Below are positions 16,640-33,406 of a stretch of 64,000 nucleotides of DNA, piece after piece. The notes beneath the pieces were generated by a model. That model saw only the letters and a program-made list of their open reading frames with translations, made no database searches and was not told the DNA's origin. The DNA is from Actinomycetota bacterium (lineage in GTDB: Bacteria > Actinomycetota > Actinomycetes > Actinomycetales > Microbacteriaceae). The translations under genes were made by a program, and so were the position numbers. The DNA is taken from NCBI GenBank assembly GCA_020161315.1, contig JAIUOH010000007.1:36993-100992 (forward strand). The letters are read 5' to 3'. How positions within the stretch are numbered: position 1 is the first letter of the stretch; the number at the start of each line of letters is the position of its first letter.

Positions 16640-18130
16640 CTAGACCGTTTCGCGACGCTGCATCGTGAAGTAGCGAATCTCCTGGTACTCCTCGAGCCCC
16701 TCGGAGCTCCCCTCGCGACCGATGCCCGACTGCTTGACACCACCGAAGGGCGCGGCAACGTTCGAGAGCAGGCCGTTGTTGATGCCAACCATGCCGGTCT
16801 CGAGCGCTTCAGCAACGTTGAAGGCGCGATCCACGTTCTCGGTGAACACGAAGGCGGCAAGACCGAAGCAGGTGTCGTTCGCTTTGGCGATGGCTTCTTC
16901 CTGCGTCTTCACGCGCGTGATCGAGGCGATCGGACCAAAGATCTCGGTTGTTGTGATGTCTGCCGCCACCGGCACGTTGTCGAGCACGGTGGCCTCGAAG
17001 AAGTGGCCAGCGCGATCGAGCTTTGTTCCGCCGGTGCGCAGATCTGCCCCCTTGGCCGTCGCATCGGCCACGAGGTGTTGCAGACGTTCGACCGCGCGCC
17101 CGTCGACCACTGGGCCGAGCTCGACCTCACGGTTGAGGGGGTTGCCCTGCACGAGGCCTGCCATCTTCTCAGTGAAGCCGGCGATGAAATCGTCGGCGAT
17201 CCCTTCTTGAATGAACATGCGGTTCGCCGACACGCAAGTTTGGCCGCCGTTGCGCATCTTTGCGAGCATCGCGCCCTCGATTGCCCGGTCGAGGTCTGCG
17301 TCATCAAAGACCAGCAGCGGCGCGTTGCCGCCGAGCTCCATCGAGCTCTTCACGATGTTCTTCGCGGCAAGCCGCATGAGCGTCGAGCCCACCGGGGTTG
17401 AGCCGGTGAACGAGACCTTGCGCACGCGATCGTCGGTGATCACTGCCTCGCTGAACGCCGAGGCGTTGTTGGTGGTGATGACCTGCACGAGCCCTGCGGG
17501 CACGCCTGCCTCTTCGAAGAGCTTCACGGTGAGGTAGGTGGTCAGTGGGGTTAGCGTCGCCGGCTTCACCACGCAACCACAGCCAGCCGCGAGGGCCGGG
17601 GCGATCTTTCGGGTGGCCATCGCCATCGGAAAGTTCCAGGGCGTAATCAGCACGGCAAGACCGACCGGGCCACGAGTCGTGACCATCGTTGAACCGCCCT
17701 GAGGCGATTCGCGGTAGCTACCGCCCGCGCGCAGCGCCTCTTCGGCGTACCAGCGAACATAGTCGGCTGCGTACTGCACCTCGGCGTACGACTCGGTGAT
17801 GGTCTTGCCCATCTCGCGGCTCATGATGAGGGCCAGGTCGTCGCGGTTCTCGATGAGCTTGGCGTAGACCGCATGCAGCACATCGGAGCGTTTGCGCGGC
17901 GTGGTCTTTGCCCAGGCCCGCCCAGCGGCGTCGGCAAGCGTGACGGCCTCGAGAGCGGTCTCGACCGTGTGGTTCGGGATCGTGGCGATCTCTTCGCCTG
18001 TGGCGGGGTCGAGCACAGGGATTGTGCCATCGATACCGGTCAGCAGGCTGCCGGGCACTGCGGCAAGCGCCGCCTTCGAACGGGCGTAGAGTTCGGGGTC
18101 GGCTTCTGCGAATGCGGCTTCGTATGCCAT
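16640..18130 (-). CDS. gabD: NAD(P)-dependent succinate-semialdehyde dehydrogenase family
   Basis: 496 aa aldehyde dehydrogenase that by subfamily oxidises succinate semialdehyde to succinate, the last step of GABA breakdown. Catalytic Cys299 is in GGQTCVSANRMF, general base Glu in SSMELGGNAPLLVFDD, and the Rossmann block is FTGSTPVGSTLMRLAAKN. The NRMF/GMVGINNG and FGGVKQSGIGREGS blocks match the SSADH group (GabD/GabD2). It follows the PuuD-like hydrolase gene by 69 bp on the same strand, so both are likely one operon. No GABA aminotransferase is in the window. Confidence 0.85.
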   Translation of the reverse strand: MAYEAAFAEADPELYARSKAALAAVPGSLLTGIDGTIPVLDPATGEEIATIPNHTVETALEAVTLADAAGRAWAKTTPRKRSDVLHAVYAKLIENRDDLALIMSREMGKTITESYAEVQYAADYVRWYAEEALRAGGSYRESPQGGSTMVTTRGPVGLAVLITPWNFPMAMATRKIAPALAAGCGCVVKPATLTPLTTYLTVKLFEEAGVPAGLVQVITTNNASAFSEAVITDDRVRKVSFTGSTPVGSTLMRLAAKNIVKSSMELGGNAPLLVFDDADLDRAIEGAMLAKMRNGGQTCVSANRMFIQEGIADDFIAGFTEKMAGLVQGNPLNREVELGPVVDGRAVERLQHLVADATAKGADLRTGGTKLDRAGHFFEATVLDNVPVAADITTTEIFGPIASITRVKTQEEAIAKANDTCFGLAAFVFTENVDRAFNVAEALETGMVGINNGLLSNVAAPFGGVKQSGIGREGSSEGLEEYQEIRYFTMQRRETV

Positions 18131-18199
18131 GGTGGGGTCCTTTCGAGGCTTGTGTTCAAGAGCGGGCGGCGCTTGGCCGCTCGCGAGAGTCGGGTGAGA

Positions 18200-18958
18200 T
18201 CAGGCAGTTTCTGCGGCGAGACGCTCGCGCACGCGGGCCACGAACCAGTCGAAGAGCGGCTGGTGCTCTGGCATCTTCTCGGGGTGCCACTGCACGCTCA
18301 GCGCCAACCAGTCATCATCAACCGGCTCGATGGCCTCGATGATGCCATCGGCAGCGCGCGCGACGACACGGAATCCGTCGGCGCAGCGGTCGATCGCCTG
18401 GTGATGAATCGAGTTGGTCTTCACGGTTGTGCCGAAGACCTGACCAATGAATCGGCTGTCGGGGCTGATTTCGACGCCGTGCTCGGAGACCGGGGACTCT
18501 CCGGGTGCGGCAGGGCCGGGTGTGTGCCGTACCGGTTCTTGCGCAATGTCTTGAATCAGGGTGCCGCCGAATGCGACGTTCAGCAGTTGGTGACCGCGGC
18601 AGATCGCGAAGAGCGGGATCCCCCGACGCTTTGCCTCTCTGATGAGTGCAAGGTCGAACGCGTCTGCGGCAGTGGTGAAGCTGCGGCTGCCCCGGTTCTC
18701 CTGCCCGTAGAAGGAGGGGTCAACGTCTTCGCCGCCAATCATCACGAGTGCGTCGGCCCCCGCGAGCAGCTGCGCCGCACGCTCTGGAAGGTCTCGGGGA
18801 ATCTGCAGCACCAACGCCCCAGCGTTCTGCACACGCATCACGTAATCGGTAATGGAGGCTTCGATGTCAAATGAGCCGTAGGGTGCGATGTCCATCGTCT
18901 TCCGCCAGGTATTGACGTAGACGATTGGAACCAATTCTTCGTTGATTTGATTCGTCAT
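18200..18958 (-). CDS. Gamma-glutamyl-gamma-aminobutyrate hydrolase family protein (PuuD-like, peptidase C26)
   Basis: 252 aa class I glutamine-amidotransferase-like hydrolase that releases glutamate from a gamma-glutamyl amide. Nucleophile Cys120 sits in FAICRGHQLLNVAFGG and the His/Glu pair in SVQWHPEKMP, so the triad is complete. In E. coli the homologue frees GABA from gamma-Glu-GABA. The ATG at 18958 lacks a Shine-Dalgarno site and is only 12 bp from an ATACCGTA-type operator, so the mRNA may be leaderless or have a very short leader. Upstream of gabD-like in an operon; divergent from an APC permease gene. Confidence 0.85.
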   Translation of the reverse strand: MTNQINEELVPIVYVNTWRKTMDIAPYGSFDIEASITDYVMRVQNAGALVLQIPRDLPERAAQLLAGADALVMIGGEDVDPSFYGQENRGSRSFTTAADAFDLALIREAKRRGIPLFAICRGHQLLNVAFGGTLIQDIAQEPVRHTPGPAAPGESPVSEHGVEISPDSRFIGQVFGTTVKTNSIHHQAIDRCADGFRVVARAADGIIEAIEPVDDDWLALSVQWHPEKMPEHQPLFDWFVARVRERLAAETA

Positions 18959-18961
18959 AGC

Positions 18962-18985
18962 TGTTATCGTATACCGTACTCGGTG
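18962..18985. promoter_or_regulatory. Putative GntR operator, site 1 (ATACCGTA)
   Basis: TCGTATACCGTAC: a GTATAC palindrome (18969-18974) overlapping the octamer ATACCGTA (18971-18978). The same octamer recurs at 23047-23054 and 28836-28843. The site is between divergent hydrolase and APC permease genes. GTATAC cores are usual for FadR/FCD-type GntR regulators, such as the one encoded at 20796-21446. Confidence 0.6.
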
Positions 18986-19137
18986 TTTTGTCGCCTACTT
19001 TCTTGGCGACAACCGGCACAAAACAGAATTCTCCTCATCTCGTTCGCCGCGATCGTAGAGTCTTCGCCCCGCCGCCGAGATACCAAAAGTGAACAAGGCT
19101 GCCGCACCGAAGCGGCATCCCTTGATGAAAGGTGACG

Positions 19138-20649
19138 ATGGTGTCCTCCTCAACAACCGATACGGCGTCGACGCAGACGCTGCGCAGCGGGGCCGTCGGT
19201 GCACCCGCGATCGCGTTCTTCGTGATCGCCGCAGCCGCCCCACTGACCTGCGTCATGGGCGTCACTCCCCTGCTCATCGGCTACGGTGTCGGCATCTATG
19301 CGCCGCTCATCTACGTCATCATCGGCCTCGCGCTGCTGCTGTTCGCCGTCGGCTACGTCGCGATGAGCCGCCGCATTCGCAATGCCGGATCGATGTACGC
19401 GTACATTGCCCAGGGCATTGGGCCCTCGTGGGGCGCCGGAGCATCGTTCGTCGCGCTCGCGGCGTACTTCTGCTCGATCATCACGCTGCTCGGGTTTTTC
19501 GGCTTCGTGGCACACACGCTCTTTCTCGATCTGTTTGGGCTTGACATTCCGTGGTACCTGCTCTGCCTCGGTGCCATCATTCTGTGCGTGCTGCTCGGTC
19601 GCAGCAACCTCGAACTCGGCGCAAAGGTACTCGGCCTCCTGCTGATTGCGGAGCTCTCGATTCTGCTGATCCTCGCAGTCACGGTGATCTTCACGGGCGG
19701 CGCCGAGGGCGTTACCGTCGAATCGTGGAACCCCGCAGGCCTCTTCGGCGGCGGCATTGGAATCAGCCTCGCATTCGCCTACGCCTCATACATCGGCTTC
19801 GAACAAACCGCCATCTACTCTGAAGAGGCGAAAGACCCAAAGACCTCGGTCAAGCGCGCAACCATCGGCGCCGTCATCTTCACTTCTGCCTTTTACGCGC
19901 TGCTCACCTGGGTGCTCGTGCTCGCCTACGGCAAGAGCGATGCAATGCAGGTCGCGCTCGAAGATCCGGGCAACATGGTCGTGAACGCGGCCCAGGATTA
20001 CCTCGGCCAGGGCGTGGTCTGGGTGATTCAGATTCTCGTTGTCACCGGCTCATTCGCTGCGATCCTCTCGTTTCACAACGCGATCTCACGCTACTTCTTC
20101 TCGCTCGGTCGCGAGAAGGTGCTGCCGAAGTCGCTCGGCTACGTGCGCGAGATCGCGCAGTCACCCCACCGCGGCAGCCTTACCGTCGGCGTGGTCAACA
20201 CCGTGCTGCTACTCATCCTGTTCGTGCTCGGCGCAGACCCCTACCTCGACATCTTCACCTGGGGTGCCGCGGCCTCGACCGTCGGCTTCGTAGCCCTGCA
20301 GACGCTCTGCTCGGTCGCGATCGTCATGTACTTCCGCAGGCACCGCGATGGCGATGAGGGACTGTGGACGACGACGATCGCCCCGGTTCTCGCATCGCTC
20401 GTGCTCGGAGCCGGCGTCGTGCTGATCGTCGCAAACTTCGGCAACCTCGTCGGCGGCGAGGTCGGCGCCGCGCCCTATGTTGTTGCGGCCATCTACCTCG
20501 CCGTGGGCGTCATCGGCTTTATCGTCGCCGAGGCCATGAAGCGTAAGCGTCGCCAGGAGTGGGCAGCCATCGGCACCGGCCGTATCTCCGTCATCGGCAC
20601 CGACGAAATGTCGGCCGAGTCGTCGACCGAGCCATCGCGGACCGCCTAA
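19138..20649 (+). CDS. APC superfamily amino acid/polyamine permease
   Basis: 503 aa inner membrane transporter with about twelve hydrophobic segments. The first, GAVGAPAIAFFVIAAAAPLT, with FAYASYIGFEQTAIYSEEAK (helix 6 region and the conserved Glu) identify the amino acid-polyamine-organocation superfamily. The ATG at 19138 is preceded by GAAAGG; a GTG two codons earlier is less well placed. Divergent from the PuuD-like hydrolase and next to the GntR gene, it takes the place of PuuP, so an amine or gamma-glutamyl compound is the likely cargo. Followed by a strong terminator. Confidence 0.88.
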   Translation: MVSSSTTDTASTQTLRSGAVGAPAIAFFVIAAAAPLTCVMGVTPLLIGYGVGIYAPLIYVIIGLALLLFAVGYVAMSRRIRNAGSMYAYIAQGIGPSWGAGASFVALAAYFCSIITLLGFFGFVAHTLFLDLFGLDIPWYLLCLGAIILCVLLGRSNLELGAKVLGLLLIAELSILLILAVTVIFTGGAEGVTVESWNPAGLFGGGIGISLAFAYASYIGFEQTAIYSEEAKDPKTSVKRATIGAVIFTSAFYALLTWVLVLAYGKSDAMQVALEDPGNMVVNAAQDYLGQGVVWVIQILVVTGSFAAILSFHNAISRYFFSLGREKVLPKSLGYVREIAQSPHRGSLTVGVVNTVLLLILFVLGADPYLDIFTWGAAASTVGFVALQTLCSVAIVMYFRRHRDGDEGLWTTTIAPVLASLVLGAGVVLIVANFGNLVGGEVGAAPYVVAAIYLAVGVIGFIVAEAMKRKRRQEWAAIGTGRISVIGTDEMSAESSTEPSRTA

Positions 20650-20664
20650 CCGAGGTCACATCGC

Positions 20665-20710
20665 AGCGCGGCGGGCAGAAGTGAAGGCTTCACCCGCCGC
20701 GCTCTTGTTT
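20665..20710 (+). terminator. Rho-independent terminator after APC permease
   Basis: Perfect 11-bp stem AGCGCGGCGGG / CCCGCCGCGCT at 20665-20675 and 20693-20703, followed by CTTGTTTTA. Confidence 0.88.
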
Positions 20711-20795
20711 TACATCGAGCACCGGAACGTCAAGGGTCGAGCTCGCGCCTACCACTATTCTGGGAGAAACCAGGATCACCGAAAGTGAACGGCCA

Positions 20796-21446
20796 TTGGC
20801 AATACAGAAAATTTCTTTTCAGCGCGAAACACTTGGCGAGGCCGCCTATCGACACCTCTTCGAGGGCTTCCTCAACAAGGAGCTGCGACCCGGCACCCGC
20901 TTGCTCATGGATGAACTCGCCGAGCAAATGGGCATCAGCCGCACCCCCGTGCGCGAAGCCCTGCAGCGCCTCGAGCGCGAGGGCGTCATTGAGGCCCACG
21001 GCCGTCGAGGCTACGTCGTGTGCGAGACCGACCCCACCGAACTCGATCAGCGCTACCAGGCTCGTGAGGCAATCGAGGGCTACTCCGTCGAGAAGGCCAC
21101 GGCACTCGGCGGCGGCACCGTCGCCCGCATTCGAGCGCGCTACGATGCCCTGCTGCAACAGCCGCAGACCACGCCAGAAGAGGTCTTCCGGGTCAATCGC
21201 GAGTTTCACCGCATGATCATTGAGGAGATCGGCAACGACCACCTCATCGAGGCGTTCGACATGCTCTGGAACCGGGTGCTCACCGCCGACATCTGGGCAG
21301 CCATGCTCGACAGCAACGACGTCGTCGGAGACTTCGACCGCGCCCACCGCGACCTCATCGCGGCGATCGAGTCGGGTGACCCTGATCGCGCACGTGAGAC
21401 CGCTATTTTGCACATTCACGACGGTCGCGTGCTTCACGAACACTGA
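20796..21446 (+). CDS. GntR family transcriptional regulator, FCD subfamily
   Basis: 216 aa. N-terminal winged helix with GTRLLMDELAEQMGISRTPV and REALQRLEREGVIEA (the recognition helix R-x-P-V-R-E-A-L), followed by an all-helical FCD ligand-binding domain with the metal-binding His residues in REFHRMI, DRAHRDL and LHIHDG. Begins at a TTG (20796); a ribosome site is weak. It lies between the permease and the glutamine-synthetase-like gene and is the best candidate to bind the ATACCGTA/GTATAC sites at 18.97, 23.05 and 28.84 kb. The inducer is probably a pathway acid or gamma-glutamyl intermediate. Confidence 0.88.
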   Translation: MAIQKISFQRETLGEAAYRHLFEGFLNKELRPGTRLLMDELAEQMGISRTPVREALQRLEREGVIEAHGRRGYVVCETDPTELDQRYQAREAIEGYSVEKATALGGGTVARIRARYDALLQQPQTTPEEVFRVNREFHRMIIEEIGNDHLIEAFDMLWNRVLTADIWAAMLDSNDVVGDFDRAHRDLIAAIESGDPDRARETAILHIHDGRVLHEH

Positions 21447-21498
21447 TCGCCCTGCCTGTTTTCGGGGTTTGGCGGCACTTGCCTACCAGCCCTCATTG

Positions 21499-21572
21499 CG
21501 AGACAACACGGTTCCGCCGAAACAACACGAGATTATTGTGTGGTTTCGGCGGAACCGTGTTGTTTCGGTGCG
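21499..21572. repeat. AACAACAC palindromic repeat, copy 1
   Basis: A perfect 21-bp inverted repeat: ACAACACGGTTCCGCCGAAA and one more C at 21503-21523, with its complement at 21543-21563, around a 19-nt spacer. It starts with CGAGACAACACG and includes CCGAAACAACACG, units also present at 44.55-44.68 kb; related sequences are at 40.87 and 62.93 kb. The position between convergent genes would also suit a terminator, but there is no T-run. Confidence 0.8.
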
Positions 21573-21632
21573 ATCGCGAGCCAAGCGGGTTCTGGTTCAG
21601 CGAGCGGATCGGCAGAAACCATCGACACATGA

Positions 21633-21670
21633 ATGGCTGAGGCCCCAGATTGCTCCGGGGCCTCAGCCAT
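21633..21670. terminator. Terminator of the glutamine-synthetase-like gene
   Basis: Perfect 14-bp stem ATGGCTGAGGCCCC / GGGGCCTCAGCCAT at 21633-21646 and 21657-21670, just beyond the stop codon of the minus-strand gene. Confidence 0.8.
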
Positions 21671-21682
21671 GTTCAGCACGAA

Positions 21683-22987
21683 TCAGATCGCACCGATGTA
21701 GCGGTCTCGCTCAATGTCAGATACTGGAATCGTCACAGCGTCGTATTCGCGCTTCACCGTGTCGATGTAGGTGTCGATCAGGAGCTCCGGGAAACTCTTA
21801 CGGGCAAGATCTGACGCCTCCAATGCCTCAATCGCGGCGGGCACCGAACGCGGCAGCGGCTTCGCGTTGGGGTCGGTGTAGGCGTTGAGATCGCATCGCG
21901 GCCCAGGCTTTACCCCCGTGCGCACCCCGTCCAGGCCGGCTGCGAGCTGGCCCGCGACCGCAAGGTAGAGGTTGCTGGTCGAGCAGGGATCACGCTGCTC
22001 AAAGCGATAGCTGCCCTCTGCGTCGATCATGCGAATCGCAACGGTGCGGTTATCGCCGCCCCAGGAGTCGGTGGTGGGGCTGAGCGTGAAGTCCTGGCGC
22101 CTCTTGTAATCATTGACGTTCCAAGAGCCGAAGAGCGAAAACTCTGCAATGCGCTTCTGCAGGCCGCCGAGGTAATGCATCGCATATTCCGATGGACCAC
22201 CGGCGGCCTCGCCAACGCCGTCAAAGAGGTTCTTGCCATCGCGCCACATTGACTGGTGAATGTGCAGGCCGCTGCCACTCTCTTCGTTAAAGGGCTTCGC
22301 CATGTACGTCGCTACCAGGCCGTTCTTCGCGGCAAGCTCCTTGACCGCGTTGCGCATAAGGATAGCGTCGTCAGCCGCTTTCAGCGCCTTGTCGTACCGC
22401 AGCGTGATTTCGAGCTGCCCGGTGCCGTATTCCTGCATACCTGCTTCGACGGGAAGACCGTAGGCAACGAGCCCATCGATAATGTCGGTGAGCACCTCAT
22501 CGTAGCGCGACCCGTCGTATACGCCGTAGGTGTTCATCTGCCGAATCAGCGGCTTGTGCGTCTCAGGGTCGAGAAGATAGAACTCCATCTCGAGCGCGAT
22601 CATCGCATCGACGCCGTCTTTCTCGTACTCCTGCAAGATCGAGATCAACGCGTTTCGCGGGCAGAGCTCAGACGGAGTACCGTCAGGGTTCTCGAGCGAG
22701 CAGAAGACCTGGGTGATGCCTGGCCGCCAAGGGACCGGGCGCAGCGTGCTCGCGATGGGTTTGATCACCATGTCAGGGTAACCCTGGTCCATGCCACCGG
22801 CGGGTGATTCATCAGGGCACTCGCAGCGCACACCCCAGTACAGGGGTGCACCGGGAATGTGCGATCCCTCGTGGGCAACACGAGGCCACTGTGCCGCTGG
22901 CACTTTCTTTCCTCGCAAGACGCCGAAAACGTCAGCGAAGATCATCTCGACGATGCGGGTTCCCTCGGGGAGTTCTATTGCGGACAC
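21683..22987 (-). CDS. Glutamine-synthetase-like gamma-glutamyl amide ligase (PuuA/IpuC/GlnA3-like)
   Basis: 434 aa. ATP-dependent joining of glutamate to an amine is the likely reaction. Glutamine synthetase fold marks are complete: metal ligands in ALEMEFYLLD, EAGMQEYGTGQLEITL, His in GSGLHIHQSMW, and the Arg block NRTVAIRMIDAEGSYRFEQR. It lacks the C-terminal adenylylation-type segment of GlnA1, and its neighbours are catabolic genes, so assimilation of ammonia is improbable. The start is GTG at 22987, chosen for a perfect AAGGAGG at 22993-22999 with 5 nt spacing. An ATACCGTA operator is 60 bp upstream. The amine substrate cannot be read from the sequence. Confidence 0.82.
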   Translation of the reverse strand: MSAIELPEGTRIVEMIFADVFGVLRGKKVPAAQWPRVAHEGSHIPGAPLYWGVRCECPDESPAGGMDQGYPDMVIKPIASTLRPVPWRPGITQVFCSLENPDGTPSELCPRNALISILQEYEKDGVDAMIALEMEFYLLDPETHKPLIRQMNTYGVYDGSRYDEVLTDIIDGLVAYGLPVEAGMQEYGTGQLEITLRYDKALKAADDAILMRNAVKELAAKNGLVATYMAKPFNEESGSGLHIHQSMWRDGKNLFDGVGEAAGGPSEYAMHYLGGLQKRIAEFSLFGSWNVNDYKRRQDFTLSPTTDSWGGDNRTVAIRMIDAEGSYRFEQRDPCSTSNLYLAVAGQLAAGLDGVRTGVKPGPRCDLNAYTDPNAKPLPRSVPAAIEALEASDLARKSFPELLIDTYIDTVKREYDAVTIPVSDIERDRYIGAI

Positions 22988-23040
22988 CAAATCCTCCTTG
23001 ATTGGTTCAAACCGTGTCGGTACTTCAATGTCCGACTCGT

Positions 23041-23062
23041 TAACATATACCGTATACCAAAT
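23041..23062. promoter_or_regulatory. Putative GntR operator, site 2 (ATACCGTA)
   Basis: CATATACCGTATACCA: octamer 23047-23054 overlapping GTATAC at 23052-23057, 60 bp upstream of the GTG of the glutamine-synthetase-like gene. AT-rich flanks (TAACATA, AAATATTATT) stand out from the GC-rich surroundings and may hold the promoter. Confidence 0.6.
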
Positions 23063-23198
23063 ATTATTTCTGCGAAAGAGGAACATCGGACGCGATGCTA
23101 CTCGCGGCCAGCCCGTTCTCTGCGTTTCGATTGAGCTCACGCGGATAGGCGCCGTCGACTGAGCTCGTCGAAGTGATCGGCGCCTATCCGCGCGATCG

Positions 23199-23990
23199 CT
23201 AGCCCGCGAGTTCGGCTTCGAGCTTCTGTCGCAGCAGTCCGCCCTCGGCACCGCCGTCGACCACCAGGTCTTCACCCGAGATCCAGGATGCCTCGTCCGA
23301 AGCGAGAAAAGAGATGGCCGCGGCGATCTCTTCGGGGCGGCCGTGACGCCCCGCGAACTCCTTCAGCGGGTCGAGCTGATCTTCACCGATCGAGTCGTAG
23401 AAATCTTGCAACAGCGGCGTCTCGGTAGGCCCTGGGCTCACCGTGTTCATGCGCATGCCCTGCACGAGCTGCCGCGACGAAATCATGGTCCACACGATCA
23501 CGGTCGCCTTCGCAAGGTTGTACGCCTCGAACGACTCCTGCCCCTCCGGCAAGAAGGGGGCGACATTGACTCGCGCTTCCTCGAGCGTCTGCGAACGCAG
23601 CAGCGCCTTGACGCCCTCGATGCGCTTGCGCCATTCGAAGCCGACCGTCGAGGCGATGGTCACGACATTCGACTCCATCCGCATTCGCTTCACCGCGTGC
23701 TCGGCGAATCGACGCATGCCGAGAAAGTTGACGGCCAGCGCCGCATCCACGCCACTCTTGCCCGAAATGCCGGCGGCATTCACCAGCACGTCGATGGTTT
23801 CGGGCAACTCATTGACTGCTGCGTCGATGGCTGCCGGATCCATCAGATCTACGATCACGGTCGGCACATCGCGCGGCGACGGGTTTCGATCTACCACGAC
23901 CACCCGGTCACCATCGTCCAGAAACCGCTCGACTACCTTGTCGCCAATGCCAGATGCGCCGCCGGTGATGACGACAGTTCTTCCACTCAT
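23199..23990 (-). CDS. SDR family NAD-dependent alcohol dehydrogenase
   Basis: 263 aa classical short-chain dehydrogenase. Cofactor loop TGGASGIGDKVVERF; Asp after VVVV (VVDRNPS) favours NAD; NAAG as VNAAGIS; catalytic Ser in TIASTVGF and Tyr/Lys in AYNLAKATV. The long insert between Ser and Tyr (WRKRIEGVKALLRSQTLEEA) and SPGPTETPLLQDF resemble the 3-alpha-hydroxysteroid / coniferyl alcohol dehydrogenase subgroup. Last gene after ALDH on the same strand (92 bp gap), it would oxidise an alcohol made by the P450 to an aldehyde or ketone. Substrate inferred from context only. Confidence 0.8.
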   Translation of the reverse strand: MSGRTVVITGGASGIGDKVVERFLDDGDRVVVVDRNPSPRDVPTVIVDLMDPAAIDAAVNELPETIDVLVNAAGISGKSGVDAALAVNFLGMRRFAEHAVKRMRMESNVVTIASTVGFEWRKRIEGVKALLRSQTLEEARVNVAPFLPEGQESFEAYNLAKATVIVWTMISSRQLVQGMRMNTVSPGPTETPLLQDFYDSIGEDQLDPLKEFAGRHGRPEEIAAAISFLASDEASWISGEDLVVDGGAEGGLLRQKLEAELAG

Positions 23991-24082
23991 ACTGCTCTTC
24001 CGTTTCTTCTTTAAGATGACGACAGCGCTACGCTGCGCCGAATGGGGTGGGTGGATCAGCTAGTGCGGATCCACCGCAAACA

Positions 24083-25597
24083 TCAACTCGGGTCGATGAG
24101 CACCGACTTGCTCTTCGTGTACTCAAGCACGCTCTCGCGCCCGAGTTCGCGACTGTTGCCCGAGAGGTGGTGCCCACCGAAGCTGATGCCGGGGTCGAGC
24201 TTGCCCACTGTGTTCACCCAGACGAGGCCGCCGCGCAGTCGCTGGGTGAGCCGGTGAGCACGCGAGAGATCGCGCGTCCAGATCGCAGCCGCGAGATCAT
24301 ACTCTGAGGTGTTCGCGAGCCGCAGCGCCTCCTCCTCGTCGCGGAAGGTGATGACCGACAGCACCGGGCCGAAGATCTCCTCGCGCGCGACCCGCATGTC
24401 GTTGTCGACTCCCGCGACAATGGTCGGTTGCATATAGAAGCCCTCCGTGCCAACAGCCTCGCCGCCGACGGCGATCTCTCCGCCCTCTTCTCGCGCGATA
24501 TCGACGTAACTGCGCACCGTGTCGAGTTGCTTCTCCGAGACGAGCGGCCCCAGGGTTGTCGCTTCGTCGAGCGGATCGCCGAGCGTGAGCTTCGCGGTCT
24601 CTTCTGCGAGCAACTGCAGCATCTCTTGCTCAATACTCTCGTGCACGAACAGGCGCGTGGGGGCTATGCAGACCTGGCCGGCGTTCTCCCAAATGGCGTC
24701 GGCAGACCCGGCCGCGGCTTTGCGCAGGTCGGCGTCAGGAAAGACGATGTTCGCCGTCTTCCCGCCAAGCTCGACACTCACTTTCTTCATCTGCGGGCTC
24801 GCGACCTCGAGAATTCGCTTGCCCACGGGCGATGACCCGGTGAACGAGACCTTTCGCACCAGCTCATGACTGAGCAGGGCCTCGCCGACCACCCGGCCGG
24901 CACCGGTCACGACGTTCAGCACGCCGTCTGGCAGGCCGACCTCACGGGCGAGATCGGCAAGGTACAGAGTGGTGTACGACGAGATCTCGGCCGGCTTCAT
25001 TACGACGGTGTTACCCGCGGCAAGGGCCGGGCCGATCTTGTGCGCGGCCATCACGACGGGAAAATTCCATGGTGTGATCGCCGCGCAGACGCCGATCGGC
25101 TGGCGCAGGGTCATTCCAAAGAAGGGACTGCGCACCGGGTTGATATCGCCCTCGATCTTCGTGGGCCAGCCGCCGTAGTAGCGGAAGGTGAGCGAGACTC
25201 CCCCGATGTCGTCCCGCGCCTGCACAATGGGTTTACCCATATCGAGCGATTCGAGCTCAGCGAGGGTCTCGAGGTGCTCATCGACCGCATCGGCAAGGTC
25301 AAAGAGATATTGCGCGCGCCTGGCCGGGCTGATGTCGCGCCACTCGGGGCTCTCGAGCGCTGCCGCGGCCGCGGTCACGGCAACATCGACATCTTCGACC
25401 GTCGCCGCGGCGATACGGCCGAGCACGCGCCCCGTTGCCGGGTCAATCGATTCGAAGGTCGCCCCATTTTTCGCCTGCTGATCCCAGGCTCCGCCGATGC
25501 GCAGGCCCTGCACCCGATCGATGAAGGCGAGCGTGCGTTCGCCAATCGGGCGGCAGTGGCCGCGATAGGCGTCGGCACCGGTGCCTGACTCTGCCAT
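24083..25597 (-). CDS. NAD-dependent aldehyde dehydrogenase (PuuC-like)
   Basis: 504 aa. Catalytic Cys310 in NAGQVCIAPTRLF, general base Glu in VSVELGGKTANIVFPDAD, and cofactor block SFTGSSPVGKRILE. The C-terminal GGHHLSGNSRELGRES is typical of the betaine/gamma-glutamyl-gamma-aminobutyraldehyde dehydrogenase group. ATG at 25597 follows GGGAGA at the usual distance. It starts 27 bp after the P450 stop codon and precedes SDR in the same operon. Expected role: oxidation of the aldehyde made by the SDR to an acid, before the PuuD-like hydrolase removes glutamate. Confidence 0.85.
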   Translation of the reverse strand: MAESGTGADAYRGHCRPIGERTLAFIDRVQGLRIGGAWDQQAKNGATFESIDPATGRVLGRIAAATVEDVDVAVTAAAAALESPEWRDISPARRAQYLFDLADAVDEHLETLAELESLDMGKPIVQARDDIGGVSLTFRYYGGWPTKIEGDINPVRSPFFGMTLRQPIGVCAAITPWNFPVVMAAHKIGPALAAGNTVVMKPAEISSYTTLYLADLAREVGLPDGVLNVVTGAGRVVGEALLSHELVRKVSFTGSSPVGKRILEVASPQMKKVSVELGGKTANIVFPDADLRKAAAGSADAIWENAGQVCIAPTRLFVHESIEQEMLQLLAEETAKLTLGDPLDEATTLGPLVSEKQLDTVRSYVDIAREEGGEIAVGGEAVGTEGFYMQPTIVAGVDNDMRVAREEIFGPVLSVITFRDEEEALRLANTSEYDLAAAIWTRDLSRAHRLTQRLRGGLVWVNTVGKLDPGISFGGHHLSGNSRELGRESVLEYTKSKSVLIDPS

Positions 25598-25624
25598 GTT
25601 CTGCTCTCCCATTGCCTTCGACGC

Positions 25625-26890
25625 CTACGCGGCGATCTTGTTCATACGAATGGGCAAACGCTTTAGGCCGTGCGTCAGATTCGAACGCAGGCGCTTCACC
25701 TCACCGGCAAGCTCGAAGCTCTCAACCTGCTCGATCTGGTGCTGCAGCAGCACCTTCAGCTCGAGACGCGCAAGCGAGTTACCGAGGCAACGATGCGCGC
25801 CGCCACCGCCGAAGGCGAGGTGGAAATTGGGCTTACGCTCAATGTCAAAGGTGTGGGGATTCGTGAAGACGCGCTCATCGTAGTTCGCCGAGGCGTACCA
25901 AATTGCGACTTTGTCACCGGCCTCGAGTTTTTTACCGTGCATCTCGGTATCCTGCGTGACCGTGCGACGGAAATGGTGGATCGGCGTGGCCCAGCGCAGA
26001 ATCTCTTCGACCGCGCTGTCTACGAGCTGCGGATTCTCGCGCAGCTTCGTCCACTGATCTGGAAAGTCACAGAACGCCTTCGCCGCGTGCGAGAACGCCA
26101 TGCGGGTTGTTTCATTGCCTGCGATCACGAGCAGCGAGAAGAAGTTCGCGAGCTCGTGCGGGGTGAGCTTGCGTCCGTCGACCTCGCTCGTGATCAACAG
26201 TGAGAAGACGTCGTGGCCGAGATCCTTTTCACGACCGATGCGAAGCTTGTCGCCGTACTCCCACAGCTCTCGACCGGCGGGACTCGAGAACTGGTACTTG
26301 CTGTTCTCGGCGAGCACCTCAGGGGTGAGGGCAGTGCGCGGGGCATGGTCCGGGTCAGAACTTGCGATCATCTCGTCGCCAAGCTCCATGATGTAGTGCG
26401 CCTCACTGTCGGGCACATCGAGCAGCGCCGCGAGCACGCGCACGGGAATCTCAGAGGAGATCTTCGAGACGTACTCGATCTCCCCTTCTTCGGCAAGGGC
26501 CGCCGTGAATGTCTCGCTCACGATGGTCTCGACTCGCTCGTCCCAGTTGCGACGCACGATGCCCGGGTTGAAGCTGGGCGCGAGGATCTTGCGATACCCG
26601 GTGTGCAGGGGTGGATCGGTGTCGATCATGGTGCGGCGTCCCTGCAGATCGGCCTCGGGAATGTCCTCGAGGGTGGTGCCGCCCTTCTCTGATGAGAAGG
26701 TGCCCGTGTCGCGGCTCAGCGCAACGACGTCCTCGTATCGCGTAAACGACCAGAAACCGCGGCTGCCGTCCCCCGGTTCCGTCCAGTGCGCGGGGTCTTC
26801 ATCGCGGAGAGTTTTGAAGAACTCGTGGGGAACCGAACCCTCAAACGCGAGCGAAGAGAGCAGGTGGTCATTCTCGTGACCTACAGACAT
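25625..26890 (-). CDS. Cytochrome P450 monooxygenase
   Basis: 421 aa soluble bacterial P450. I-helix oxygen motif AGNETTR, ExxR as EEILRW, and heme loop FGGGGAHRCLGNSLAR with heme-ligand Cys368; an Ala in place of one usual residue gives FGGGGAHRC. The N-terminal half (TMIDTDPPLHTGYRKILAPS) looks like the CYP124/125/142-type group or terpene P450s, but no CYP family can be fixed. ATG at 26890 is preceded by AAAGGA. It is in one operon with a reductase and a flavodoxin, giving a complete NADPH-to-heme chain. Context with an amide ligase and hydrolase suggests hydroxylation of a gamma-glutamylated or free amine; other substrates are possible. Confidence 0.92.
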   Translation of the reverse strand: MSVGHENDHLLSSLAFEGSVPHEFFKTLRDEDPAHWTEPGDGSRGFWSFTRYEDVVALSRDTGTFSSEKGGTTLEDIPEADLQGRRTMIDTDPPLHTGYRKILAPSFNPGIVRRNWDERVETIVSETFTAALAEEGEIEYVSKISSEIPVRVLAALLDVPDSEAHYIMELGDEMIASSDPDHAPRTALTPEVLAENSKYQFSSPAGRELWEYGDKLRIGREKDLGHDVFSLLITSEVDGRKLTPHELANFFSLLVIAGNETTRMAFSHAAKAFCDFPDQWTKLRENPQLVDSAVEEILRWATPIHHFRRTVTQDTEMHGKKLEAGDKVAIWYASANYDERVFTNPHTFDIERKPNFHLAFGGGGAHRCLGNSLARLELKVLLQHQIEQVESFELAGEVKRLRSNLTHGLKRLPIRMNKIAA

Positions 26891-26955
26891 GGTGAATCCT
26901 TTCGATGTGTGTTGCGCGGCAACCCTGCCGCGGGAAGAGCGAGCGACGCCCGGTA

Positions 26956-27420
26956 TCAGACCAGTTGGGCTTTGAGGTCTGCGAGCACGCCAGGCACCCA
27001 TGCCAGGGCGAGCTCGGTGCCGTCGTCGATTGACGAGGCATCGTGGCGGCCGTACTCACCTATGCGAGTGGCGCCCAGCTCGGTGAGCTTGCGGTCGATG
27101 ATCTCGCTGCCCTGGCTGTACGTTTCAGCGTAGAACGAGTCGCCGAGACCGAACATCGCGTAGCGTACACCCGAGAGATCGGGTGCTTTCGCCTCGAGCT
27201 CGGCGAGAAAAGGGATCGCCGTGTGGGGCAGTTCACCTTCGCCGTGAGTTGAACAGATAATGAGGTAGGCGTGCACATCGGGATCGACGTTTGTCGGGTC
27301 GGTGTTGGCGAGATCGCCGAGCTCGGCCTCGTACAGTTCGCTCGTCAGATAGTCAACGAGATCTTGCGCGATGAACTCGGAGTTGCCCGATTCTGTGCCA
27401 TACAGAACGCTGAATTTCAT
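26956..27420 (-). CDS. Flavodoxin (FMN electron carrier for P450)
   Basis: 154 aa flavodoxin-like protein. FMN phosphate loop YGTESGNSEFIAQDL at the N-terminus, then ICSTHGEGELPHTA (50s loop) and MFGLGDSFYAETY (90s loop) are all present. It carries no fused reductase domain. Located between the FprA-type reductase (35 bp upstream) and P450 (65 bp downstream), it most likely passes single electrons from FprA to the P450, as cindoxin does for P450cin. Most actinobacterial P450s use 3Fe-4S or 2Fe-2S ferredoxins, so this redox partner is less common. Start ATG at 27420. Confidence 0.9.
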   Translation of the reverse strand: MKFSVLYGTESGNSEFIAQDLVDYLTSELYEAELGDLANTDPTNVDPDVHAYLIICSTHGEGELPHTAIPFLAELEAKAPDLSGVRYAMFGLGDSFYAETYSQGSEIIDRKLTELGATRIGEYGRHDASSIDDGTELALAWVPGVLADLKAQLV

Positions 27421-27454
27421 GAAGGTACCTCGTTTCGAAGTGCTGGGGTGATGT

Positions 27455-28816
27455 TTAGGCTGCCGTCGCGCCCTGGCGGGCGACCTCGAGCATCTGGACG
27501 GTAGTGGGAAGCTTGCTGCGGGTGCGGCCTGTCGCCGCGTGCTCGCATTCGTGGCGGTCAACGCGCAGCCAGTCTTCGTAGCTGACGGCGAGGGCGCGCG
27601 CGCGGCTGGGCAGAATCGGTGCCTCTGCCGCAATGTCTGCGCGCGGGATGGCTCCGCTCTCAAGATCGGCGACAATCTCGGCGGCAACAGCAACGGCGTC
27701 GGCGCGGTTCTCAGGAATGGTGCCCTGGGGGCCGCGGCGAAGCCAGCCGACGCGGTACAGACCGGGCTCGACCCTGCATGATCCACCGTCTGCCCGGGTA
27801 CCGCCAATGTCTGGGCTGTGCGCATCAGCGCCAAAGCCGATCGCAGAGACAACGCTATCGACGGCGTAGTCTTGCGTTCCGCCGGCGCTCAGCGCGACCC
27901 GCAGCCCGACAACCCGCTCTTCGCCGAGCACCTCTTGCGGTGCGGCACCGAAGTGCAGGCGCAATTCGATACGTGGCCCGGCGGCATCTGCGGCGAGCTG
28001 AGCGAGCTCGCGCAGCGCCTCGACCCGTGACTTTTGCACGCGATCTTCGATCTGCTCGAGCGGGGTCGCGGTGTCTCCATGCAGCGACACGACGAGGCCC
28101 GAGATCTGACCGAGCTCGCGAATCATCTGCGCGTCGCATTTGGCCAGCTCAATTGCTGAACGGGAGAAGACATCGATGCGCGTGACGGGTGCCCGATGGT
28201 AGGCGGCGAGTGCAGCGTCGTTGATGTCGCTGCCTTCGAAATCAGCGGCCTCCTTGGCAAGAAAGCGAATGATATCTACGGCCACGTTGCCGAGCCCAAC
28301 GATAGCCACGCGATCACCGAGCGTCGCGGTGAGCGCGATCGCATCGGCATCATCGGGGTGGCTGTTCAGCACGCGAGTGAGGGCACCGGACCCGATGACC
28401 CCTGGCAGCCCTTCACCAGGCACACCGAGCGCACGATCGGCGGCGAGCCCCGTGGCAAAAACCACTGCGTCGACACGATCGCGAAGCTCGGCGAGAGTCA
28501 CACTGCCGGCGCCGCTCTGGATCTCGGCGTTCACTGCTGCCGTGGTTACGCTCACATTGCCAGCAAACTCAACACCCTCACGGCTGAAGATGCGGTCGAA
28601 CTGGCGGGTGATGTTCTTCGTGCTCTGATGGTCAGAGGCCACGCCGTAGCGCACAAGACCGAAGGGGCATGGCAATCGGTCGATGACCACGATGCGCGCG
28701 GTGGGCAGGGAGCGCCGCAGCGCCCCGGCGATAAAGCACCCGCTGGGGCCCGCGCCGACAACGGCGATACGCAGAGGCCGCTCCGCTCCGCTCAATTCGA
28801 CTGTGTTGTCGCTCAT
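27455..28816 (-). CDS. fprA: FprA-type NADPH:ferredoxin/flavodoxin reductase
   Basis: 453 aa flavoprotein of the adrenodoxin reductase family. FAD loop AVVGAGPSGCFIAGAL, the family sign PCPFGLVRYGVASDHQSTKN, NADP loop VGLGNVAVDIIRFLA, and the C-terminal GWLRRGPQGTIPENRADA are intact. It takes electrons from NAD(P)H and reduces the flavodoxin next to it. First gene of the operon fprA-flavodoxin-P450-ALDH-SDR; AAAGGAG lies upstream of the ATG at 28816. An ATACCGTA/GTATAC operator lies 20-30 bp upstream, in a position to block transcription or translation start. Confidence 0.92.
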   Translation of the reverse strand: MSDNTVELSGAERPLRIAVVGAGPSGCFIAGALRRSLPTARIVVIDRLPCPFGLVRYGVASDHQSTKNITRQFDRIFSREGVEFAGNVSVTTAAVNAEIQSGAGSVTLAELRDRVDAVVFATGLAADRALGVPGEGLPGVIGSGALTRVLNSHPDDADAIALTATLGDRVAIVGLGNVAVDIIRFLAKEAADFEGSDINDAALAAYHRAPVTRIDVFSRSAIELAKCDAQMIRELGQISGLVVSLHGDTATPLEQIEDRVQKSRVEALRELAQLAADAAGPRIELRLHFGAAPQEVLGEERVVGLRVALSAGGTQDYAVDSVVSAIGFGADAHSPDIGGTRADGGSCRVEPGLYRVGWLRRGPQGTIPENRADAVAVAAEIVADLESGAIPRADIAAEAPILPSRARALAVSYEDWLRVDRHECEHAATGRTRSKLPTTVQMLEVARQGATAA

Positions 28817-28831
28817 GCCACCACTCCTTTA

Positions 28832-28850
28832 TGGGATACCGTATACGCTA
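28832..28850. promoter_or_regulatory. Putative GntR operator, site 3 (ATACCGTA)
   Basis: GGGATACCGTATACGCTA: octamer at 28836-28843 and GTATAC at 28841-28846, upstream of fprA. Shares the 11-mer ATACCGTATAC exactly with site 2. Confidence 0.62.
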
Positions 28851-28982: not shown

Positions 28983-30137
28983 TCACTCGGCTTGGTTATG
29001 CTCCCCCAGGCGCGGTACCCGCCCCGGCTTCGCATGGGCACCATCGAACAGCAGCGGCAGACGCGGCAGCGACAGCCTGGACCCGTCTTCCAAGACGGCC
29101 ACCGAATTCTCCACCGGCACGAACATTTCTCGGTGCGCGAGCTGGGGGTGTGCCCGCACCTCAGCGATGTCATGCACCGCCCCGACAGGCTGCCCCGCGC
29201 GGCGCAATATCGCCGCCGCCTCGTCGCGCGTCAGCTCGGCCGCCCAGGCTTCGAAAATCGGGATCACCAGGTCGTGCATACGGTCGGCCCGCTTGAGCAC
29301 AGTGTCGAGTTCAGGGTGCCGCACCAGATCCGGGTCACCCATCGCCTCAGCACAACGACGCCACATCTCATCGGTGGGAATCACAATCGAGAGCCACCGG
29401 CCATCGCCCGCGCGAAACATACCGACCGGGCTGAACCGGTCGATACCCCGAGTCGGCGTCGCCCCCGTGAACTCGTGCAGTGTGAGGGGGCGCTCAAGAA
29501 ATGCTGCGGTGATATCGAGCATTGCGGCGTCAACCAGGCTGCCCTCGCCTGTGCGCGCACGCTGCACGAGCGCCATGAGGATTCCGACCGTCGAATATAC
29601 GGCGGTCAGCATGTCGGTTGTTCCCATTGGCGCAAGCGTGGGCGGGCCGTCGGCCTCACCAATGAGGCTCCCGAGACCGGCCATGCCCTGGATCACGCTG
29701 TCGAAAGCCGGCCAGCCTGCGACCTCACCACCAGTGCCGCCAAACCCGGTGATCTCGCAGATGACCAACCCGGGGTATCTGCGGCGCAGCTCAGACGGTG
29801 CCAGCCCCATGCGGCCAAGGGCACCCGGGCGCAGGTTGCAGACAAGCACGTCAGCCTCACCGATCAGGCGTTCAAGCGCCGACACACCTTCGGGTGTGTC
29901 CAGTGCGAGCTCGACCGATCGCTTGCCACGGTTGTAGGACGCAAAACCCCCGCTGAGGCGATCTTCGCCCTCGCCGATCACAGGAGCATAGCTGCGACGC
30001 GGGTCTCCCACCCCTGGCCGCTCAATCTTCGTAACCTCGGCACCGGCGTCGGCCAGCATCGATGTGCAATAGGGGCCCGCGATGAACTGCTCAAGCGAGA
30101 CCACCCGAATGCCCTGCAGCAACGTCAACCCTGACAT
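28983..30137 (-). CDS. Family III CoA-transferase (CaiB/BaiF)
   Basis: 384 aa. Transfers CoA between acyl-CoA and a free carboxylate. The start LLQGIRVVSLEQFIAGPYCT, ADAGAEVTKIERPGVGD, VLVCNLRPGALGRMGL and the catalytic-Asp block LAPMGTTDMLTAVY are family marks; length is normal. ATG at 30137 follows AGGAGG. It is downstream of the GntR gene on the same strand (46 bp), so may be co-transcribed with it. A second, divergent family III transferase is at 32203. Substrate is probably a dicarboxylate of the neighbouring pathway; which of the two enzymes activates and which recycles CoA is not clear. Confidence 0.85.
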   Translation of the reverse strand: MSGLTLLQGIRVVSLEQFIAGPYCTSMLADAGAEVTKIERPGVGDPRRSYAPVIGEGEDRLSGGFASYNRGKRSVELALDTPEGVSALERLIGEADVLVCNLRPGALGRMGLAPSELRRRYPGLVICEITGFGGTGGEVAGWPAFDSVIQGMAGLGSLIGEADGPPTLAPMGTTDMLTAVYSTVGILMALVQRARTGEGSLVDAAMLDITAAFLERPLTLHEFTGATPTRGIDRFSPVGMFRAGDGRWLSIVIPTDEMWRRCAEAMGDPDLVRHPELDTVLKRADRMHDLVIPIFEAWAAELTRDEAAAILRRAGQPVGAVHDIAEVRAHPQLAHREMFVPVENSVAVLEDGSRLSLPRLPLLFDGAHAKPGRVPRLGEHNQAE

Positions 30138-30183
30138 GCATGCCTCCTGCTATGAATTGTCGGCTGCGGTGAATGACTAGCCG

Positions 30184-30831
30184 TTATGCGCGCTGTCTAC
30201 CCTCGAAGTAATCGGCGAGCTTCTCGCCCGCGTTGCGGATGTGCTGCGCCATCGCCGCACGGGCTGCCTCGGCGTCTCGCCGCACGATCGCGTCGCACAC
30301 GACTGAATGATCGGCGGCGGTCGTCTCTGGCCAGCCTGCGATTTGTGCATAGAAAGAGCTCGGCACGTACTTCACGAAATTGCCGAGCGCCCAGCGCAGA
30401 CGTTCTGACCCCGATGCAAGATAGACCATTCGGTGAAACTCATCGTTCAGGCGATCGAGCCGCTCGGTGTCTCCCCGCTCGGCAGCGAGCATCAGCTGCG
30501 CCTGGTTTTCAGTCAGGGCGGCAAGCGCCACATCGTCAATCTTCGCCGCCGCGCGCGCAGTAAGCTCGCCTGCGACCAGCGCATGAGCCTCGAAGATATC
30601 GCGAATGTCATCAGCCACGAGCGGGCGCACGGTGAAACCGCGTCGCGGAATCAGGTCGAGAAATCCTTCGGCCCTGAGCGCATGCAGCGCCTCGCGCACC
30701 GGCGTAGCAGAGACGTCGAGCGCCTCACCAACGGCCTCGGCGCGCACCGATGCACCGGGGGCAAACTCACCGGCCATGATCGATTGGCGCAGGTGCGATG
30801 CGACCTCGTCGCTGAGCTGACGTCGAAGCAT
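30184..30831 (-). CDS. GntR family transcriptional regulator, FCD subfamily (second)
   Basis: 215 aa. Winged helix with VGEALDVSATPVREALHALR, then FCD domain with DEFHRMVYLASGS, AADHSVVCDAI and MAQHIRNAGE His residues that bind a metal and the effector. ATG at 30831 has AGGA just before it. Divergent from acyl-CoA dehydrogenase; the 208-bp gap holds an AT-rich near-palindrome (30947-30963) like those before pyc, the citE-like gene and the MaoC-like gene, which this protein could bind. The ligand is likely an acid or acyl-CoA of that pathway. Confidence 0.88.
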   Translation of the reverse strand: MLRRQLSDEVASHLRQSIMAGEFAPGASVRAEAVGEALDVSATPVREALHALRAEGFLDLIPRRGFTVRPLVADDIRDIFEAHALVAGELTARAAAKIDDVALAALTENQAQLMLAAERGDTERLDRLNDEFHRMVYLASGSERLRWALGNFVKYVPSSFYAQIAGWPETTAADHSVVCDAIVRRDAEAARAAMAQHIRNAGEKLADYFEGRQRA

Positions 30832-30946
30832 AATGTTCCTCCTGCGAAGCACCGACCCACGCGCGCTTCGCCCTCAGGATCGGAATACCGATTCCGTTCA
30901 CTCCATATTCTATTGGCGCGGCGACGAAGTTCTTGTTGAATCGTGC

Positions 30947-30963
30947 TTTCTATATTATATTGC
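30947..30963. promoter_or_regulatory. AT-rich putative operator C (gntR / acyl-CoA dehydrogenase)
   Basis: TTTCTATATTATATTGC, 76 bp upstream of the acyl-CoA dehydrogenase ATG. Compare TTTCTATATAATATTTTC before pyc. AT-rich in a GC-rich genome, close to a palindrome. Confidence 0.5.
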
Positions 30964-31038
30964 AAATACCGAAATGGTGTCGGGCGCCTGTTCCAAAAAC
31001 CAGCCCTCCCCTCCTCATCCAATAGTTAGGACGCAGCA

Positions 31039-32190: not shown

Positions 32191-32202
32191 AAGGGCTATC
32201 TC

Positions 32203-33336: not shown

Positions 33337-33369
33337 CTAGAGTTCAACACTCGAGGATCCCCTCGACCA

Positions 33370-33406
33370 GTTGAAATGCCCTCCCCTGCCGGGAGGGCAT
33401 TTCAAC
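33370..33406. terminator. Bidirectional terminator
   Basis: Perfect 16-bp stem GTTGAAATGCCCTCCC / GGGAGGGCATTTCAAC with loop CTGCC, between the convergent CoA-transferase and CitE-like genes. Confidence 0.9.

Follow-up and report, generated by a model that had tools for sequence, protein, structure and literature searches.

What does a cytochrome P450 oxidize when its operon lies beside genes of the kinds that process γ-glutamylated amines? This question is raised by a stretch of 64,000 nucleotides on contig JAIUOH010000007.1 (assembly GCA_020161315.1), hereafter called the window, which belongs to a 3.0-Mb draft genome of the genus Leucobacter. A preliminary description of the window had placed side by side an amide ligase, an APC-family permease, a PuuD-like γ-glutamyl hydrolase, a succinate semialdehyde dehydrogenase (SSADH), an aldehyde dehydrogenase (ALDH), a short-chain dehydrogenase (SDR), a P450 chain and a GntR regulator. 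Genes were named by profile searches (Pfam, TIGRFAM and NCBIfam) and by matches to solved structures, some open reading frames (ORFs) of the window remaining unprofiled, and all of the listed genes were confirmed to be present. The observation holds, and its interpretation is partly supported, by comparison, the kind of pathway being already known. Judged from its sequence, the cluster probably encodes a γ-glutamylamide P450 pathway by which a small primary amine is taken up and utilized, and for which the substrate, the step order and the regulator are presumed.

In the proposed route (genes on the minus strand unless stated), the amine would be imported by the APC permease (19132-20649, plus strand; PF13520, E 1.6e-26), which is 37% identical to its counterpart in the Ipu isopropylamine cluster of Paenarthrobacter aurescens TC1, and would be joined to glutamate by the glutamine synthetase (GS)-like ligase (21683-22987; PF00120, E 1.9e-81). 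Electrons would pass from NADPH through a reductase of the adrenodoxin reductase/FprA type (27455-28816; 1CJC, E 6.2e-39) and a flavodoxin (26956-27420) to the P450 (25625-26890; PF00067), which would hydroxylate a terminal methyl group of the γ-glutamyl amide. The electron carrier is a flavodoxin and not a ferredoxin, with cindoxin as its best solved match (4OXX, E 7.8e-24), and is 93-94% identical in the two Leucobacter genomes, G008 and G033, which also carry this P450 (the kin). The P450, the single PF00067 match in the whole genome, contains the motifs AGNETT and ExxR and the heme loop FGGGGAHRCLG. The alcohol would then be turned into the acid by the SDR alcohol dehydrogenase (23199-23990; NF009092, 237 bits at a cut-off of 242) and the ALDH (24083-25612; PF00171, E 7.3e-169; 42-44% identity to the ALDHs of Ipu clusters). 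The PuuD-like hydrolase (Peptidase C26; 18200-18958; PF07722, E 5.7e-56; motifs CRGHQ and HPE) would release glutamate and an ω-amino acid, the amine end of which would become a second carboxyl group by the action of an aminotransferase encoded elsewhere and the SSADH-type ALDH (16640-18130; TIGR01780, 533 bits, below the cut-off of 646; 87% identity in G008 and 86% in G033). Both ALDHs contain the motif GQxC.

The ligase and the shared operator

The ligase, apparently of the GoaS kind, most likely starts at GTG 22987, behind the Shine-Dalgarno sequence AAGGAGG, where CCAATCAAGGAGGATTTGGTGTCCG is common to the window and both kin. The in-frame stops in the ligase rows of G008 and G033 most likely precede this start, the searches having used a reading which starts 63 bases upstream of it. 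Glutamine synthetases can be aligned with the whole length of the protein. Comparison with 8OOW shows that the motifs FDGSS and GYEAP of glutamine synthetase are replaced by IPGAP and FTLSP, at positions which we take to be those of Asp50′ and Glu327, respectively. According to one study, GoaS enzymes can no longer use ammonia for glutamine synthesis, and conserved catalytic residues of GS, including Asp50′, are replaced in NpaA1 (PMC11335346). As the ammonia residues of the window ligase are replaced and the GoaS enzymes provide a precedent, the acceptor is likely an amine rather than ammonia, in line with the amide ligase predicted in the preliminary description.

Beyond the three Leucobacter genomes, the identity of the ligase to any relative found is at most 39.5%. 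In the ligase tree, a quick tree, it groups with the ligases of Mesorhizobium locus L055 and of L093/L096 (SH-aLRT 84, which is not strong). The ligases of TC1 and of the Ipu cluster of pYJNG are next nearest by path after those of the kin and Mesorhizobium, but lie in another group with moderate support. The nine label changes counted on this tree are an overcount, because five short loci are labelled as other though identical to linked rows. A second GS-like gene (locus L193, contig C34 of genome G000) with 33% identity to the window ligase was found beside a PuuD-type gene, accompanied by genes of a GntR regulator and an APC permease and adjoining glycine cleavage genes.

The sequence ATACCGTATAC, which precedes the ligase and the P450 operon, is the sole exact 11-mer common to any of 13 intergenic stretches. 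The operator-like sequence ATACCGTAT occurs exactly in the ligase promoter (23047-23055) and in the promoter of the operon for reductase, flavodoxin, P450, ALDH and SDR (28836-28844), and with one mismatch, as ATACCGTAC, in the divergent promoter of hydrolase and permease (18971-18979), at the same place as in the loci of both kin. Only one other site in the window has a single mismatch (38401). Exact copies were found in none of 20 first-order simulated 64-kb sequences, which gave on average 1.85 matches with up to one mismatch. A longer operator pattern with up to two mismatches gave 8 matches against 1.07 expected, both strands of palindromic sites being tallied separately, and none of 100 shuffles reached 8. 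In G008 (locus L039) and G033 (locus L040) the motif is located at all three orthologous places with no or one mismatch, and a contig of a further Leucobacter genome, G043, carries one copy with one mismatch directly before its permease gene. These sites support the earlier proposal that the ligase, the P450 operon and the hydrolase/permease pair form one regulon. The GntR/FCD regulator GntR1 (20796-21446, plus strand; PF00392 and PF07729) is its candidate regulator and probably controls the three ATACCGTAT promoters.

The ligase has a promoter of its own, since a terminator-like inverted repeat (23137-23195) separates it from the SDR gene. A large inverted repeat, likewise terminator-like and detected by the same inverted-repeat search, lies between the convergent genes of GntR1 and the ligase (21499-21567). 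The SSADH gene follows 69 bp behind the hydrolase gene and is probably transcribed from the hydrolase promoter.

A different, AT-rich motif, CTATATAATATTTTCT, shows 16 identical bases before the genes of a pyruvate carboxylase (13022) and a MaoC-type protein (35412), with a looser copy before a second GntR regulator and an acyl-CoA dehydrogenase (30950). This could represent a promoter element or else a second operator, and was set aside as evidence since it is possibly a -10 box.

Cytochromes P450 adjoining GS-like ligases

P450 loci were called linked if the window ligase or IpuC of TC1 gave a tblastn match of 80 bits or more within the fetched stretch, which covered about 9 kb either side of the P450 and less at contig ends. 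The nearest P450s outside Leucobacter reach up to 47% identity. Within the order (396 genomes), seven other P450s pass E 1e-85, three of them from one genus and two from another. Six of these are accompanied by a GS-like gene at gaps of 77-192 bp, the seventh (L051) only by a weak GS-like fragment where the stretch ends. Across the phylum (396 genomes), a GS-like gene lies beside 37 of the 40 top P450 homologues, which are consecutive after omission of G098, versus 2 of 20 lower ones, which were hand-picked at intervals and are not a random sample. The median gap of the linked pairs is 111 bp and 35/37 are on the same strand; the Fisher p of 2e-10 is a guide only, the rows being kin by descent, and independence is incomplete where several loci come from one genome or contig (G856, G957, G1025, G1055, G1062). 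The three unlinked loci among the top 40 are L121 on a 5-kb contig, L126, where an amidotransferase-type gene lies at a distance of 12 bp, and L128. The functional link between ligase and P450 assumed in the preliminary description is supported by this gene neighbourhood.

On plasmids, 8 of 10 P450 loci drawn from 40 listed of 1,287 plasmid records carry the ligase (L055, chosen as the best ligase match, L058, L085, L086, L087, L089, L091 and L092), with none in L088 and L090; the Ipu loci L056 and L057 had been entered as ligase matches. The hosts with linked loci are Mesorhizobium, Ruegeria, Tritonibacter, Sagittula, Novosphingobium, Streptomyces and two Embleya, and two Rhodococcus plasmid P450s are without ligase. 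On plasmid pML2037 of Mesorhizobium loti NZP2037 (L055), P450, reductase, APC permease, ligase and PuuD-type gene lie together. This cluster adjoins genes annotated as 3-sulfinopropanoyl-CoA desulfinase, CaiB CoA-transferase and acyl-CoA carboxylase and may serve a sulfur-bearing amine.

In a quick tree of 82 P450 rows (58 linked, 24 not), the linkage label changes 5 times, compared with 20.9 in shuffles. The Ipu P450s of TC1 and YJN-G form a separate branch of length 2.72.

The group can also be recognized by residues of the P450 itself. These were derived from 53 linked and 21 unlinked rows, with the P450s of Leucobacter and of the Ipu clusters, L051, L121 and L126 omitted. P204 is present in 53/53 of the linked rows, S203 and G171 in 50/53 each, and N249 in 42/53. 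The Leucobacter P450s, although outside the derivation, carry all four and R85, and P204, G171 and R85 are also found in L051, L121 and L126, which are unlinked and lie inside linked clades. Among the other 21 unlinked rows, P204 occurs in one, and P204, G171 and R85 together in none. By eye, the Ipu P450s lack the P204/N249 stretch. Forty further loci at class level, which are kin of the training loci, were then compared: the first 20 are consecutive minus G098, G470, G052 and G626, and the next 20 skip second P450s within stretches that had been included before and then step down. A ligase accompanies 29/31 of those with P204 and 0/9 of those without, the two exceptions with P204 being L156 (on a 7.9-kb contig) and L177. 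With the three-residue mark, the corresponding counts are 25/27 and 4/13. A structure prediction of the P450 from two sequences reached a mean pLDDT of 36.1 and was unused for placing R85, S203/P204 and N249. R85 as a unique mark was rejected, as it is also found in unlinked P450s.

Several points weigh against the proposed γ-glutamylamide pathway. The window P450 is 33% identical to the P450 of TC1, and the ligase 34% to IpuC. The three Leucobacter P450s sit on a long branch (1.54) in a polytomy of linked and unlinked groups, and R85 occurs in 8/24 unlinked rows. ALDH and SDR are missing from view in some linked clusters, and the neighbours of linked P450s vary (Paa genes, homoprotocatechuate genes), so that the pair of ligase and P450 leaves the substrate unfixed. 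Still, the comparisons point to a P450 outside the Ipu family, in a group which adjoins GS-like ligases in Actinomycetota and some Alphaproteobacteria. It is this ligase-linked group that would come as unexpected to a specialist, and the literature searched on ligase-P450 and amine-P450 themes contained no description of a P450 group of this kind.

The Leucobacter block and its CoA-thioester module

Among 48 other Leucobacter genomes, orthologues of the P450 (90-91% identity) and of the ligase (84%) are both confined to G008 and G033, and matches to the hydrolase at 63-74% identity are limited to these two and G043 among 53 other Leucobacter genomes, the others reaching at most 46%. A conserved CoA-thioester module follows to the right of the cluster (28983-36357), just outside the interval of the preliminary description. 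It begins with a family III CoA-transferase, CoAT1 (28983-30137, minus strand; PF02515, E 4.7e-100), and, by profile search, the regulator GntR2 (30184-30852, minus strand). These are followed by an acyl-CoA dehydrogenase (ACAD; 31039-32190, plus strand), a candidate methylsuccinyl-CoA dehydrogenase with FadE3 (4IV6) as nearest solved structure, and by a second family III CoA-transferase identified by profile, CoAT2 (32203-33336, plus strand). The last two are a citramalyl-CoA-lyase-like protein of the RipC/CitE kind (33446-34387, minus strand; NF038242, 158 bits at a cut-off of 375; solved relatives 9NZB, 8KHL and 3QLL) and a MaoC-kind protein like itaconyl/mesaconyl-CoA hydratases (35446-36357, plus strand), whose two solved relatives at E<=0.001 are the itaconyl-CoA hydratase 8KHG (1.5e-61) and 8HUC (MaoC_dehydrat_N; 6.4e-61).

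Both kin keep the whole block, with insertions, namely SSADH, hydrolase, permease, GntR1, ligase, SDR, ALDH, P450, flavodoxin, reductase, CoAT1, GntR2, ACAD, CoAT2, lyase and MaoC; the gene set that was to be sought by comparative genomics thus recurs in both other P450-bearing Leucobacter genomes. In G008, about 2.5 kb with amidase-like and LuxR-like frames, as judged by eye, is inserted between reductase and CoAT1; the amidase-like name rests on inspection, because a Pfam scan of the guessed frame gave no family. The other insert, about 10 kb long, separates hydrolase from SSADH and includes a class III aminotransferase gene which ends 14 bp before SSADH. No close copy of it was found in the window genome, where the best of 10 class III genes has 36% identity, and another contig of this genome encodes a γ-aminobutyrate (GABA) aminotransferase (TIGR00700, 593.7 bits at a cut-off of 506.65). 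The aminotransferase gene beside SSADH in G008 and this GABA aminotransferase agree with the transamination that had been postulated ahead of the SSADH step.

A 5.7-kb contig of G043 carries in a row an ALDH (47%, cut), an APC permease (35%), a PuuD-type hydrolase (62%), the lyase (50%) and CoAT2 (69%, cut), and so joins amine and CoA modules in a different order. Orthologues of P450 and ligase were not found in G043, a genome that is 80% complete.

A family III CoA-transferase is also present in the clusters of L055 and L093/L096, and in L096 the genes of ligase, amidotransferase and CoA-transferase abut or overlap. Such a gene near the ligase is a weak sign, because it also occurs near unlinked P450s (L133, L138).

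Neither G008 nor G033 shows, in its fetched flanks, the genes to the left of SSADH or the frame 34454-35320. Among those left of SSADH, an M17-type aminopeptidase lies beside an AbgT-type transporter (7881-11176). Further to the right, an agmatinase-like ureohydrolase recognized by sequence reading (38639-39583) is near a DMT-type exporter assigned by eye.

Related pathways and candidate amines

Glutamylation, P450 oxidation and deglutamylation have already been described for the Ipu isopropylamine pathway (PMC6776027), known from Pseudomonas KIE171 and from plasmid pTC2 of P. aurescens TC1, so that the general route logic proposed here is not new. The TC1 cluster includes permease, IpuC, SDR, amidotransferase, P450, ferredoxin, reductase and ALDH. 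The TC1 and pYJNG clusters contain the same gene kinds as the window, those of Mesorhizobium and Embleya a part of them. In common with Ipu, the window has a clustered ligase, a P450 with redox partners, hydrolase, permease, SDR and ALDH. It differs in its P450 group, in the flavodoxin and adrenodoxin-type reductase in place of ferredoxin and its reductase, in the SSADH-type enzyme and the adjoining CoA module, and in a GntR regulator where TC1 has a GAF protein. The P450 group, the redox partners and the likely product are thus distinct from Ipu.

The aniline and naphthylamine pathways use a Rieske dioxygenase. The GoaS ligases AtdA1, NpaA1, PuuA and the Ipu ligase resemble the window ligase in a GS fold without the ammonia residues and in their position beside amine catabolism genes (PMC11335346), whereas the oxygenase of the window is a P450 and not a Rieske dioxygenase. 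With the Puu putrescine pathway it shares PuuA-, PuuD- and ALDH-type parts, an APC permease and SSADH, and has a P450, a flavodoxin, a reductase and an SDR instead of PuuB. The absence of PuuB claimed earlier stands for the cluster, where no PuuB-like profile was found among the profiled proteins and no DAO match is listed on this contig, and does not extend to the genome, because 24 DAO matches are listed elsewhere in it. Outside the cluster, a Pyr_redox_2 protein (41197-42525) gives a weak DAO match. The canonical Puu pathway was rejected, there being no PuuB in the cluster.

Another neighbourhood of P450 and GS is provided by the piperidine and morpholine clusters of Gulosibacter molinativorax (pipA/bioI) and Mycobacterium, likened by locus tags only: the tags of the pipA/morA-kind P450s GMOLON4_437 and _3051 adjoin those of the GS genes _438 and _3052 (PMC9477822). 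In that study the GS was interpreted as serving ammonium assimilation, with the P450 proposed to attack the ring amine directly. The two Gulosibacter GS genes might be amine ligases. Among solved chains, the flavodoxin is most cindoxin-like, as in the P450cin/cindoxin chain, while the reductase is nearest to adrenodoxin reductase/FprA and the P450 is different.

With regard to the substrate of the window pathway, C4-C5 alkylamines are favoured, and among these branched C5 amines presumably come slightly ahead of n-butylamine. It is possible, though doubtful, that the cluster and the CoA module form one route which converts isoamylamine or 2-methylbutylamine, derived from leucine or isoleucine, to methylsuccinate. 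The amine would be glutamylated, oxidized by the P450 at the ω-position to the methyl-GABA level, deglutamylated, transaminated and oxidized by the SSADH-type enzyme to methylsuccinate. This would enter the CoA module as methylsuccinyl-CoA and pass through mesaconyl-CoA and citramalyl-CoA to acetyl-CoA and pyruvate. By its chemistry, ω-oxidation of either amine followed by transamination and the SSADH step should give exactly methylsuccinate, and the gene content of the CoA module points no less to a branched C5 amine than to butylamine. The known itaconate/methylsuccinate cluster likewise comprises CoA-transferase, acyl-CoA dehydrogenase, MaoC-type hydratase and CitE-type lyase, which are compared here by homology only (PMC12290011). 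Among the profiled window proteins no MmgE/PrpD protein was seen, and the window has a second CoA-transferase and the attached amine cluster. A number of findings count against the methylsuccinate route. No copy of the operator was found in the CoA module. ACAD orthologues with 81-86% identity exist in G003, G005 and G010, which lack the P450 (E 1e-60), and in G003 and G005 they adjoin thiolase genes. An MmgE/PrpD isomerase is missing among the profiled window proteins and, in G008 and G033, from the interval that separates lyase and hydratase, where the genes of 451-475 amino acids are cytochrome b561-like. Finally, the SSADH-type enzyme scores below its curated cut-off (533 versus 646 bits).

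Slightly less probable, the substrate would be n-butylamine, converted via γ-Glu-butylamide and γ-Glu-GABA to GABA, succinate semialdehyde and succinate, with the CoA module as an unrelated itaconate cluster. γ-Glu-GABA is a known substrate of PuuD, which was counted for this possibility together with the SSADH-type enzyme in the cluster, the GABA aminotransferase above its cut-off in the genome and the right-hand module devoid of ATACCGTAT. However, the conserved adjacency of the CoA module in 3/3 P450-bearing genomes and the G043 contig would be left unexplained, and the SSADH-type enzyme is below its curated cut-off.

An aromatic amine such as phenylethylamine or tyramine, hydroxylated by the P450 at the ring or the benzylic carbon, is rather unlikely: linked P450s of Streptomyces canus (L086) and G052 (L041) lie by homoprotocatechuate-type genes and that of Ruegeria TM1040 (L085) by paaABCD, but no ring-cleavage or Paa genes were found among the profiled window proteins. 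For the P450 branches of L086, L041 and L085 themselves, these neighbours hint at aromatic amines.

Slightly more improbable still is a P450 operon that merely borders an amine operon and has an unrelated substrate such as a terpenoid, a sterol or an acid. This reading would agree with the nearest solved structures, which are of the CYP125, CYP268 and CYP124 kinds, and with the separate promoters and the terminator-like repeat between the operons, yet the conserved operator in common and the ligase linkage of the P450 group speak against it. CYP125-type sterol oxidation in particular was rejected, as CYP125MRCA has no counterpart to the 13 residues before FSSP and a Met opposite N249.

A true isopropylamine pathway ending in alaninol, for which the gene kinds of pTC2 and the path distance of the pYJNG and TC1 ligases could be cited, is very unlikely, as those ligases fall into another group and no alanine or alaninol dehydrogenase was found among the profiled window proteins, and the plain Ipu pathway was rejected on the P450 branch of 2.72 and the missing P204/N249 stretch.

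Tagging with glutamate before oxygenation is known for a few amines, and in combination with a P450 for isopropylamine. If the cluster and the CoA module do form one route for branched C5 amines, the window P450 would belong, as a branched member, to a group of P450s that oxidizes γ-glutamyl amides. A connection of this cluster to methylsuccinate would be relevant to the origin of that acid. A second group of P450s tied to amine ligases and recognizable by sequence would provide a testable substrate class for many unassigned P450s.

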